Below are positions 12,725 to 40,759 of a stretch of 40,759 nt of DNA, piece by piece (position 1 is the first letter of the stretch; each line of letters begins with the position of its first letter). Position numbers and translations under genes: made by a program. Under the pieces are notes generated by a model. It ran no database searches. It was not told the origin of the DNA and was given only the letters and a program-made list of their open reading frames with translations. The stretch comes from Eubacterium sp. (lineage in GTDB: Bacteria > Bacillota > Clostridia > Lachnospirales > Lachnospiraceae). Location of the stretch: NCBI GenBank assembly GCA_017965495.1, contig JAGCPW010000033.1, positions 1 to 40,759 on the forward strand, read 5' to 3'.

Positions 12725-13456
12725 ATGAATTTTTATGTTTTGACGCTGTTTCCGGAAATGATACAAGAGGCAGTTATGACAAGTATCACTGGAAGAGCAA
12801 TAACTGATGAAAAAATTAGCGTAAAAGCTATTAATATAAGAGACTATGCTGATAATGATTATGGTCAGATAGATGATTATCCATATGGTGGAGGTGCTGG
12901 TATGGTAATGCAAGCGCCACCTATTTACGATGCATATCAAGATATCGTAAAGGAACTTGGTTATAAGCCTAGAGTTATCTATATGACCCCACAGGGTAAA
13001 ACCTATGAGCAAGCGGATGTTAAATCCTTTGCCGAAGAAAAAGATATAGTAATTCTTTGTGGTCATTATGAAGGTGTAGACGAGAGAGTACTTGAAGAGA
13101 TAGTCACTGATAATATTTCTATTGGCGATTATGTACTAACTGGTGGAGAGTTGCCTGCGCTAGTTGTTATTGATTCAATAACAAGACTTGTCCCAGGTGT
13201 GCTTAACAATGAAGATTCTGCGGCTACAGAAAGCTTTGAAGATGGATTGTTAGAGCATCCACAGTACACAAGACCTGCTGAATTCAACGGCAAAGAAGTG
13301 CCAGAAATACTTTTATCAGGCAATCACGCAAAGATTGATGAATATAGAAGACAAGAATCGCTAAGAAGGACTTATGAGAGAAGACCAGATATGCTAGAAA
13401 AGGCAGATTTGAGCGAAAAAGACCAGGATTTCTTGGATAGTATAAATAAGGATTAA
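12725..13456 (+). CDS. trmD: tRNA (guanine-37-N1)-methyltransferase TrmD
   Basis: TrmD methylates G37 next to the anticodon of several tRNAs using S-adenosylmethionine, which prevents frameshifting. The 243-residue protein is a SPOUT-fold enzyme. Visible motifs are DDYPYGGGAGMVM, the knot segments YMTPQGK and LCGHYEGVDERV, and SIGDYVLTGGELPALV. The C-terminal domain has the usual EHPQYTRP stretch. It follows rimM after two bases and precedes rplS, the conserved order. Confidence 0.97.
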   Translation: MNFYVLTLFPEMIQEAVMTSITGRAITDEKISVKAINIRDYADNDYGQIDDYPYGGGAGMVMQAPPIYDAYQDIVKELGYKPRVIYMTPQGKTYEQADVKSFAEEKDIVILCGHYEGVDERVLEEIVTDNISIGDYVLTGGELPALVVIDSITRLVPGVLNNEDSAATESFEDGLLEHPQYTRPAEFNGKEVPEILLSGNHAKIDEYRRQESLRRTYERRPDMLEKADLSEKDQDFLDSINKD

Positions 13457-13577: not shown

Positions 13578-14243
13578 ATGGCAGATGAAAAGAAAGATGT
13601 TGTAGAAGAAGTTAAAGAAGATCTTGCTGAAGCAGCTGAAGAAGTAGCTGAAAAGGTTGAAGAGACTGTTGAAGAAGTGAAAGAAGCTGTAGAAGAAGCA
13701 GTGGAGACTGTGGATGAAGCGGCTGAAGAAGCTGAAGCAGAGGTTGAAGAAGCTGTAGAAGAAGATGCAGCTGAAGAAACTGAAACTACAGAAGAGGCTG
13801 AAGAAGCTACAGAAGAAACTGAGGAAGCAGAAGAAACTGCTGAAGAAACTGAAGAAGCTCCAGCTGAAGAAGAAAAGAAAGAAAAAGTTCCAGTTAAGAC
13901 TCATGAATTAATTAAGGATATCGAAGAATCACAGAAGAAAGAAGTTGCAGACTTCAAAGTAGGTGATACTATTGTGGTATCAGCTAAGATTGTGGAAGGT
14001 AACCGTGAAAGAATTCAGAAGTTTTAAGGACTTGTAATTAAAAAGCAAGGCGGCGGAAACAGAACAACATTCACTGTAAGAAAAGATTCAAACGGTGTAG
14101 GTGTTGAGAAAACTTGGCCATTATACTCACCAACAATCGCTAAGATTGAGGTAGTAAGAGAAGGTAAGGTTAGACGTGCTAAACTTAACTACATTAAGGC
14201 TAGAGTTGGTAAAGCTGCTAAGGTAAGAGAATTAGTTAAATAA
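13578..14243 (+). pseudogene. rplS: Ribosomal protein L19 (bL19) with acidic N-terminal extension and in-frame stop
   Basis: L19 sits at the 30S-50S interface. The frame from 13578 is opened by AAAAAAGGAGG and encodes two parts. Residues 1-106 are an extension absent from ordinary L19 (about 115 residues): 45 Glu and 5 Asp in the first 100 residues, no aromatic residues, much Ala, Val and Thr. From about residue 107 it is clear L19 (THELIKDIEESQKKE, GNRERIQKF). A TAA at 14025-14027 then replaces the glutamate of the conserved Phe-Glu-Gly. The rest, [19 protein letters not shown] to [10 protein letters not shown], is intact in the same frame to the TAA at 14241-14243. It contains no ATG, GTG or TTG codon in frame. 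As written the gene gives 149 residues instead of 221. One G-to-T change in GAA explains it, either a sequence error, a fresh mutation or recoding. Confidence 0.85.
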
Positions 14244-14321: not shown

Positions 14322-15158
14322 ATGGATTATCAATGGTATCCGGGCCATATGACAAAGGCCATCAGACAAATGAGAGAAGATATTAAATTGGTAGACCTAG
14401 TGATCGAATTATTAGATGCTAGGATTCCTTTGAGTAGCCGAAATCCAGATATCGATAACCTTGGACAAAACAAATCGCGCCTTGTAATTCTAAACAAAGC
14501 AGATCTAGCTGATGAATCACAAAACAATTTGTGGGACAAATATTTCAAAGACAAAGGTTACACAGTTCTTAAAGTAGATTCTAGAGTTAATTCTCTTGCG
14601 AAAATTGTTGATAGAGCAATTGAGGAAGCTTGCAAAGAAAAGATAGAGGCTAATAAGAAAAAGGGAATTAATAGACCGATAAGAGCTATGGTAGTTGGAA
14701 TTCCTAATGTTGGAAAGTCTACTTTTATTAATTCTTATGCTAAAAGATCTGTTGCAAAAACAGGAAATAAGCCGGGTGTAACAAAAGGAAAACAGTGGAT
14801 AAAGATTGGTAAGAATCTAGAACTATTAGATACTCCAGGAATTCTATGGCCTAAGTTTGACGATGAACAAATTGGACTTAATTTAGCTTTGGTAGGTTCT
14901 ATGAATGATAACAATTTAGATGCTGCAGAACTTGCTTTTCAGTTTATTAAAATGACAAGGGAAAATTATCCTGACATATTAAAGGATAGATTTAATATAG
15001 AAGGGAACGAAGATATTGTAGAAGAAATGTATCAGGTGGCTGATGTTAGAAACTGTAAGTTGCCGGGCAATAAACTAGACTTAGACAAAGCTTCAAAAAT
15101 AATTCTAGATGAGTTTAGAAGCGGCAAACTTGGAAAGATAACACTAGATAGGATTTAA
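14322..15158 (+). CDS. rbgA: Ribosome biogenesis GTPase RbgA (YlqF)
   Basis: RbgA is a GTPase required for a late step of 50S assembly. The 278-residue protein is circularly permuted: the G4 motif NKADLAD comes first (about residue 60), then the P-loop GIPNVGKSTFIN, then DTPGILWPK. The N-terminal DYQWYPGHMTKA is the family signature. The ATG at 14322 is chosen for AAAGGAAGG at 14307-14314 and because the protein then starts as its relatives do; an upstream in-frame start at 14283 lies in the terminator. It precedes rnhB by one base, the usual pairing. Confidence 0.95.
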   Translation: MDYQWYPGHMTKAIRQMREDIKLVDLVIELLDARIPLSSRNPDIDNLGQNKSRLVILNKADLADESQNNLWDKYFKDKGYTVLKVDSRVNSLAKIVDRAIEEACKEKIEANKKKGINRPIRAMVVGIPNVGKSTFINSYAKRSVAKTGNKPGVTKGKQWIKIGKNLELLDTPGILWPKFDDEQIGLNLALVGSMNDNNLDAAELAFQFIKMTRENYPDILKDRFNIEGNEDIVEEMYQVADVRNCKLPGNKLDLDKASKIILDEFRSGKLGKITLDRI

Positions 15159-38646: not shown

Positions 38647-40759
38647 GTTTACCAAAACTTATGCAGGATGTTTGGGACAATCAGTTAGATTCCTTAACAC
38701 CAATGATGAAATCATATCTAGAAATCAAACAAGAACACAGTGATTGCATTGTGTTCTTTAGACTGGGCGATTTTTATGAAATGTTTTTTGATGATGCACT
38801 TACTGGTTCAAAAGAAATGGAAATTACTTTGACTGGAAAGAACTGCGGACTAGATGAGCGCGCTCCAATGTGTGGAGTTCCACATCATGCAGTTGATTCG
38901 TATATCAACAAATTAGTTTCTAAAGGTTATAAAGTTTGCATTGTTGAACAAACTGAAGATCCAGCCCAAGCCAAAGGTTTGGTAAAAAGAGAAGTAGTTA
39001 GAATAGTAACACCAGGTACCAATTTAGATTCCGCATCACTCGATGAGGGTAAGAACAATTACATTATGTCTATTGTTTATATTGGTGACATGTATGGTGT
39101 TTCTATTTGTGATGTAACTACAGGTGATTACTATGTGACTGAAGCTAGTTCTGAGCGAGATGTATTAGATGAGATTTATACATTTATGCCAACTGAGATT
39201 GTTTGCAATGCTGCATTTCTAGCACAAGGTATGAATCCATTTAACATAGATGAACTTAAAAATAGAATGAATGTTTCAATCTTTGAATTGGAAGATTGGT
39301 ACTTTGACGAAGATACATGTAATAACACTTTGAAAGATCATTTCAAAGTTTCATCTTTAAGTGGTTTAGGAATTACAGATTCGAAAGTTTATATATTAGC
39401 GGCTGGATCACTTCTTAGATATTTGTTTGAAACTCAAATGACAAGTCTAGAGCATATAACAAATCTTAAGCCTTACACATCTAGCACATTTATGATGCTT
39501 GATACATCTACTAGAAGAAACCTTGAGCTTTGTGAGACTATGCGTGATAAACAAAAACGTGGCTCGCTTCTTTGGGTGCTAGATAAGACAAAGACAGCAA
39601 TGGGCGCAAGAACACTAAGAAGTTATATAGAACAGCCTCTTATTTCTAAAGATGAAATAATAGCAAGACAAGAAGTGATAGAAGAACTTAATAATTCTTT
39701 AATTACTAGAGACGAATTAAGAGAATATTTATCACCGATTTATGACTTGGAAAGACTTTTGAGTAAGATTTCTTATAAGTCAGCCAATCCAAGAGATTTG
39801 ATTGCATTTAAGACTTCACTTGAAATGATTCCACATATCAAAAATGTAATTAAGGATTTTGAGTCTCCATTGTTTAGAGAGATTTTCAACTCACTTGATC
39901 CATTAACAGATATTGCCGAGTTAATTGATAAATCAATCAATGATGATCCACCTCTAAGTATTAGAGAAGGTGGAATCATTAAACTTGGTTACAATGATGA
40001 AGTAGATAAACTTCGAAATGCCAAAACAGAAGGCAAACAATGGTTAGCAGAACTAGAAGCTAAAGAAAAAGAAGATACAGGAATTACTAAACTTAAAATC
40101 AAATACAATAAAGTGTTTGGCTACTACTTGGAAGTTTCAAATTCATTTAAAGATCAAGTTCCAGAGCATTATATTAGAAAACAAACTCTTGCAAACGCAG
40201 AGAGATACACTACAGATAAGCTAAAAGAGTTAGAAGATATTATTGTGGGAGCCGAGGATAAATTGTTCTCACTTGAATACAATATATTCTCTGAGATTAG
40301 AGATGAGATTTATAATCAAATTTCAAGAATTCAATCTACAGCTAAAGCTATTGCAAAGATAGATGTTTTTGCATCGCTTGCATATGTGGCTGAACGAAAT
40401 GGTTATGTTAGACCAGAGATAAATGAAGATGGAAAAATTGATATCATCGAGGGAAGACATCCTGTAGTTGAAAAAATGATGGCTGAAAATATGTTTGTCA
40501 CAAACAACACACACTTAGATGAGGATGACAATAGATTTGCGATTATTACTGGTCCTAATATGGCTGGTAAGTCTACATACATGAGACAAACTGCGCTTAT
40601 CGTTTTGATGAGTCAAATTGGTTCATTTGTTCCAGCTGCTTCAGCCAATATTTCTATATGCGATAAAATATTTACTCGTGTGGGTGCATCTGATGATTTG
40701 GCGAGCGGTCAAAGTACATTTATGGTTGAGATGACTGAGGTTGCTAACATTTTAAGAAA
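38643..40759 (+). CDS. mutS: DNA mismatch repair protein MutS, cut by the window end
   Basis: MutS recognises base mismatches and recruits MutL. The open frame gives at least 705 codons and runs off the end of the window, so about the last 170 residues of a usual 870-880 residue protein are missing. The mismatch-binding motif Phe44-Tyr45-Glu46 is in RLGDFYEMFFDDA. The core domain is followed by the ATPase with Walker A GPNMAGKST at residues 637-645 and the later GASDDLASGQSTFMVEM. The TTG at 38643 is chosen because GGGAG at 38628-38632 is 10 bases upstream and the start overlaps the miaB stop (TTGA). An ATG at 38661 is in frame but has no ribosome site. miaB-mutS is a common order in Firmicutes. 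Confidence 0.93.
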   Translation, partial: MSLPKLMQDVWDNQLDSLTPMMKSYLEIKQEHSDCIVFFRLGDFYEMFFDDALTGSKEMEITLTGKNCGLDERAPMCGVPHHAVDSYINKLVSKGYKVCIVEQTEDPAQAKGLVKREVVRIVTPGTNLDSASLDEGKNNYIMSIVYIGDMYGVSICDVTTGDYYVTEASSERDVLDEIYTFMPTEIVCNAAFLAQGMNPFNIDELKNRMNVSIFELEDWYFDEDTCNNTLKDHFKVSSLSGLGITDSKVYILAAGSLLRYLFETQMTSLEHITNLKPYTSSTFMMLDTSTRRNLELCETMRDKQKRGSLLWVLDKTKTAMGARTLRSYIEQPLISKDEIIARQEVIEELNNSLITRDELREYLSPIYDLERLLSKISYKSANPRDLIAFKTSLEMIPHIKNVIKDFESPLFREIFNSLDPLTDIAELIDKSINDDPPLSIREGGIIKLGYNDEVDKLRNAKTEGKQWLAELEAKEKEDTGITKLKIKYNKVFGYYLEVSNSFKDQVPEHYIRKQTLANAERYTTDKLKELEDIIVGAEDKLFSLEYNIFSEIRDEIYNQISRIQSTAKAIAKIDVFASLAYVAERNGYVRPEINEDGKIDIIEGRHPVVEKMMAENMFVTNNTHLDEDDNRFAIITGPNMAGKSTYMRQTALIVLMSQIGSFVPAASANISICDKIFTRVGASDDLASGQSTFMVEMTEVANILR

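Follow-up and report, generated by a model that had tools for sequence, protein, structure and literature searches.

An in-frame TAA codon within the single rplS gene of a draft Eubacterium genome most likely reflects an error of sequencing or assembly

The stretch of DNA analysed here (the window; 40,759 nucleotides) is the whole of contig C21:1-40759, whose last gene runs off the contig end, and belongs to the draft genome of a Eubacterium species (G000; 97 contigs totalling 1,658,693 bases, with 92.83% completeness and 1.97% contamination). It carries a frame for ribosomal protein bL19 (rplS) that starts at ATG 13578, directly 3' of an AGGAGG-type ribosome-binding site, and that is interrupted by an in-frame TAA at codon 150. 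The features of the locus are as follows:

12725..13456, plus strand: upstream neighbour of rplS, intact relative to congener G021
13578..14243, plus strand: rplS (bL19) frame of 222 codons with an internal and a terminal TAA, identified by profile matches
13578..13880, plus strand: acidic, Glu-rich N-terminal extension of L19, ~100 residues, shared with small-genome congeners; its border with the core is approximate
13881..14024, plus strand: N-terminal part of the conserved L19 core, in which residues 110-149 correspond to rplS_bact positions 2-43
14025..14027, plus strand: internal in-frame TAA at the Phe-x-Gly position, where the seven nearest loci have GAA
14028..14240, plus strand: intact remainder of L19, 71 codons, rplS_bact positions 45-113
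14241..14243, plus strand: normal terminal TAA of rplS
14322..15158, plus strand: downstream neighbour of rplS, intact relative to congener G021

Pfam model PF01245 scored 146.2 bits over the rplS frame (cut-off 22), the tool passing over the internal TAA. With the NCBIfam model rplS_bact (TIGR01024), 13578-14024 matched model positions 2-43 (36.4 bits, below the cut-off of 90.7) and 14028-14240 matched positions 45-113 (93.1 bits, cut-off 90.7), which places the internal TAA at model position 44. The latter part alone also matched solved bL19 chains (E about 4e-23). The frame and the profile matches thus bear out the preliminary description of this DNA, which had reported a TAA at 14025-14027 within rplS, followed by 71 further L19 codons and a second stop. 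Under translation table 11 rplS is not an uninterrupted frame, due to the TAA at codon 150, and a product truncated there would keep 42 of the 114 rplS_bact positions and lose positions 44-114. Translational restart had been considered unlikely since no ATG, GTG or TTG lies in frame downstream; this holds, and CTG is absent as well from the frame 3' of the internal TAA, in which ATT occurs three times and ATC once.

Gene order around rplS is colinear with that of congener G021 across the window. We take the upstream neighbour to be trmD-like and the downstream neighbour to encode an RbgA/YlqF-like GTPase, presumably giving the usual order trmD, rplS, rbgA. The window gene resembles known bL19 genes (rplS; PF01245, TIGR01024) in that its two parts jointly cover the model, in its gene order, shared with G021, and in being single copy. 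It differs from them in the in-frame TAA at the Phe-x-Gly position and in the acidic N-terminal extension, which is common to the window L19 and those of seven congeners.

The codon at the stop site was compared in the best 80 of 401 related loci, a set that overlaps with the 60 genomes discussed below. It was GAA in 45, GAG in 20, CAA in 5, CAG in 5, GAC in 2, ACT in 2 and GCC in 1; a stop was found at the site in none of these 80. The preliminary description had stated that the stop replaces the glutamate of L19, which is accurate for the 65 loci (best 80 of 401) with Glu, while the other 15 have Gln (10), Asp (2), Thr (2) or Ala (1). All of the seven nearest loci, which are among the best 80, carry GAA. 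This comparison of the same base in close relatives, which had been recommended as a check, agrees with the proposed origin by a single change from GAA to TAA, the two codons being one base apart. The nearest genomes are those of congeners, with about 82-89% DNA identity around rplS; near loci carry the record titles Eubacterium, Lachnospira or Lachnospiraceae, and some come from reindeer and sheep. In a set of 60 genomes, 58 (G000 included) had L19, with exactly one match each, and the stop occurred in G000 only; L19 was free of stops in the remaining 57. In a sample of the order, L19 was matched in 368 of 392 genomes, and no stop within L19 was present among the matches listed. Searches for a same-species copy gave no match in viral contigs to a stop-spanning pattern with N at the changed base, and in plasmids five distant matches, each spanning no more than 36% of the query; records very close to G000 may be missing from the collections searched.

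We next consider whether the frame has decayed. Relative to the seven nearest relatives, the 48 core codons 5' of the stop displayed 7-17 synonymous and 0-1 amino-acid-changing differences, and the 71 codons 3' of it 5-19 synonymous and 0-4 amino-acid-changing differences. Changes found only in the window were all synonymous, the stop itself aside, with 1 located 5' and 3 located 3' of it, although these counts are small. Judged by these substitutions, the codons 3' of the stop are under the same constraint as those 5' of it. The absence of a frameshift and of relaxed constraint 3' of the stop speaks against a decayed pseudogene, and old decay in particular is disfavoured because a long-dead 3' part would not exhibit such a pattern of synonymous and amino-acid-changing differences. 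The earlier argument that decay is unlikely because both halves are intact is thereby upheld.

A Pfam search for L19 across the whole assembly (92.83% complete) found no second L19 in G000, the sole match being the place with the TAA inside; the suggested check for a second rplS was therefore negative in the assembled genome. An intact rplS might nevertheless reside in the unassembled or unbinned part of the genome, rendering the window copy dispensable, given that about 7% of the genome is missing from the bin and that one contig or more seems to have been misassigned to it. However, none of the 58 genomes with L19 shows more than a single match to it, and the window copy lies in a gene order common to G021 and is without relaxed constraint, so that we view a hidden second copy as very improbable.

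With respect to bin purity, contig C94 (180,054 bases; L154, L166-L168, L173) is phage-type and was binned with G000; it encodes an RNA ligase, a DNA polymerase and a RecJ-like protein, has one weak match to a virion-protein PHROG, and bears 23 ARAGORN tRNAs within 17.5 kb, none of which reads a stop. The end of contig C47 (L223) and the start of C65 (L161:1-985) share an overlap of 985 bases with 87% identity. The final 172 bases of C47 are an exact match to the start of congener contig G011:C137, which suggests that the C47 end may derive from a sister species and have been binned here in error. Because of the phage-type contig and the 87% overlap, G000 is not a clean single-strain assembly. 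Two other G000 contigs, C49 (L157:1249-1447) and C97 (L160:1454-1652), have a stretch of 199 bases in common at 99% identity.

Alternatively, L19 may be dispensable in this lineage, or functional when truncated. No L19 match was found in 24 of the 392 order-sample genomes, 7 of which have ≥90% completeness and ≤5% contamination (one is listed as 98% complete), and congener G009 likewise lacks an L19 match. Against this, the other 17 of the 24 fall outside that quality class, and missing contigs can explain the rest; within the class, L19 was present in 292 of 299 genomes. G009 (84% complete) gave only three short, weak matches to a 5.7-kb rplS query and none to the rplS neighbours, which points to a missing stretch. 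Since the truncated form would also retain just over a third of the model, as noted above, we consider the chance that L19 is expendable here to be minimal.

Stop-codon recoding or suppression occurs in code-variant bacteria and phages, and the window gene resembles such cases in that its frame is open and constrained after the stop. If the TAA were translated by readthrough, suppression or recoding, full-length L19 would be made. G000 contains 56 tRNA matches, and ARAGORN called an anticodon for 54 of these, the two others being weak matches on contig C94. In this ~93% complete genome, none of the 54 called anticodons reads TAA, TAG or TGA, and the window itself has no tRNA gene. Two release-factor-family genes are present in G000, both free of internal stops. 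TAA is moreover the commonest terminal stop in the window, ending 20 of 31 genes, in 4 of which it is followed by G, as is the internal TAA of rplS.

As a broader test of recoding, we looked for other internal stops. Within the window, 32 of 33 plus-strand genes were stop-free in their best match with G021, the exception being rplS. The window and contig C33 were then compared with G021 using 152 G021 frames, 122 of which had a counterpart at ≥55% identity (46,230 aligned residues), the other 30 query frames falling outside the comparison. Apart from that in rplS, we recognised no stop inside a conserved protein in these 122 genes of the window and C33. Six rows of this forward comparison contained a stop, namely rplS and five that were set aside. 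In one, a protein that we take to be RbfA-like is 5 residues shorter than in G021, and in another a 168-residue protein is merely 2 residues shorter; a 545-residue frame has two stops, both 5' of where it probably begins; and a 93- and a 97-residue frame on the minus strand lie opposite, respectively, a short frame open in both genomes and an intergenic stretch plus a gene end. Two further, stop-free rows reflected, in one case, unequal lengths and, in the other, a gene truncated by the window end. In the reverse direction, 122 of 137 queries had a counterpart (45,383 residues), and we recognised no case of a conserved G021 protein broken by a stop; the nine flagged rows comprised five with a stop in the first 14 residues, one length difference and three minus-strand frames. 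Closer inspection covered four minus-strand frames, those of 93 and 97 residues and two more. A 190-residue minus-strand frame with two stops and a frameshift-like match in a second frame was rejected, as it lies opposite a 150-residue frame, presumably MraZ-like, that is intact in both genomes. An 86-residue minus-strand frame is open and overlaps only a 45-residue frame; a further minus-strand frame lies at window 40323-40514. An unfiltered version of the comparison, in which overlapping frames were retained, flagged 43 of 182 rows, mostly minus-strand or shadow frames, and is superseded by the filtered test.

According to PMC11126739, E. coli reporters leak least at TAA, their means being 0.01-0.05% of the wild-type value, although a G after the stop is reported to lower termination accuracy and readthrough can reach 80% under stress in a context-dependent manner. 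Readthrough of 0.01-0.05% would be too little for a stoichiometric ribosomal protein. The open, constrained frame and the following G of the window gene favour readthrough, but the gene differs from established recoding and suppression in that no suppressor tRNA was found among the called anticodons, no other recoded gene was recognised, and the stop is not conserved, being absent from all relatives examined (the best 80 of 401 loci; 57 genomes). The readthrough option of the preliminary description hence finds no support in the 54 anticodons, the release factors, the usage of TAA in the window or the 122 compared genes, and we judge it highly unlikely. Were the TAA real and fixed in this lineage, full-length L19 might come from efficient gene-specific UAA readthrough or from a suppressor tRNA encoded in the missing 7% of the genome, a combination to which we assign a very slight chance. 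A core ribosomal protein reliant on readthrough of the tightest bacterial stop codon would be remarkable, and ribosome production would then depend on termination efficiency.

L19 is essential in E. coli and B. subtilis. In C. difficile, 52 of 55 annotated ribosomal proteins were scored as essential, rplS not being named in the available text of PMC12548448. For a ribosomal gene of expected essentiality, sequenced within a draft bin, an error explains the TAA more economically, and the finding that rplS has the only recognised internal stop in a conserved protein among 122 genes fits an isolated error. We consider a sequencing or assembly error most likely, in preference to new biology. More specifically, the TAA is probably a wrong or minority base in the consensus of a draft bin, the cell itself having an ordinary rplS. 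A single wrong consensus base could have arisen if the G that follows three consecutive T was itself called as T, for instance through phasing or low depth; alternatively, a base from a minority strain may have been carried into the consensus. In either case normal L19, with Glu at codon 150, would be made.

The principal competitor to a consensus error is a genuine nonsense mutation of very recent origin, carried by the sampled cells or by a sub-population, that cuts L19 after residue 149 and leaves its carriers impaired or killed. A single base change suffices, and both halves are intact and constrained, as expected for a young lesion. The local consensus also looks accurate: in five genes near rplS, the window has 13 residues found in one species only (the stop counted; 9 are in an rnhB-like gene), which is inside the range of 3-21 observed for seven relatives and indicates no general excess of errors. 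In contrast, the affected gene is the sole L19 in the assembly, L19 is nearly universal among the higher-quality genomes of the order, and a lethal allele would be unexpected as the consensus of a growing population. We therefore regard a fresh mutation as unlikely, though a good deal less so than readthrough. Both explanations fit the sequence evidence equally well, and our preference for error follows from the expected essentiality of L19; on that ground we infer an erroneous base in place of a very young mutation. Thus, of the three options originally put forward, error is preferred, fresh mutation is retained and readthrough is not.

The case is similar to premature-stop artefacts of draft assemblies in being an isolated one-base lesion that no examined relative shares, in a core gene whose two halves are intact. 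It may differ in read type from the gene-fragmenting errors described in PMC12007338, which concern long-read assemblies. In literature searches we recognised no account of this rplS case. Taken together, these results indicate that the observation is true and its cause likely ordinary, and they argue that one-base lesions in single-copy core genes of draft bins be checked against reads before a biological reading is attempted.

Apart from the stop, the acidic Glu-rich N-terminal extension of L19 (~100 residues; window 13578-13880; L032-L038; L190-L192, L194, L195) has relatives of its own. Long L19 frames (214-228 aa) occur in G000 and seven congeners with genomes of 1.1-1.7 Mb, whereas 14 other L19-bearing congeners, of 1.8-2.9 Mb, have short frames (119-152 aa), these sizes being rough since several genomes are incomplete. 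In the genomes compared, the extension appears confined to small-genome congeners. Extension DNA at 13602-13847 shows 79% identity, across some 250 bases, to L161:2034-2273 on G000 contig C65, which encodes the C-terminal extension of another protein, presumably of S1-domain type, and is 68-78% like the L19 extensions of five congeners. This resemblance suggests that an acidic module may have been copied between ribosome-associated proteins. A long acidic C-terminal tail is also present in the protein encoded at L162:3963-4949 (G000 contig C55), which we take to be L10-like, and likewise in three congener stretches (L189, L196, L197).
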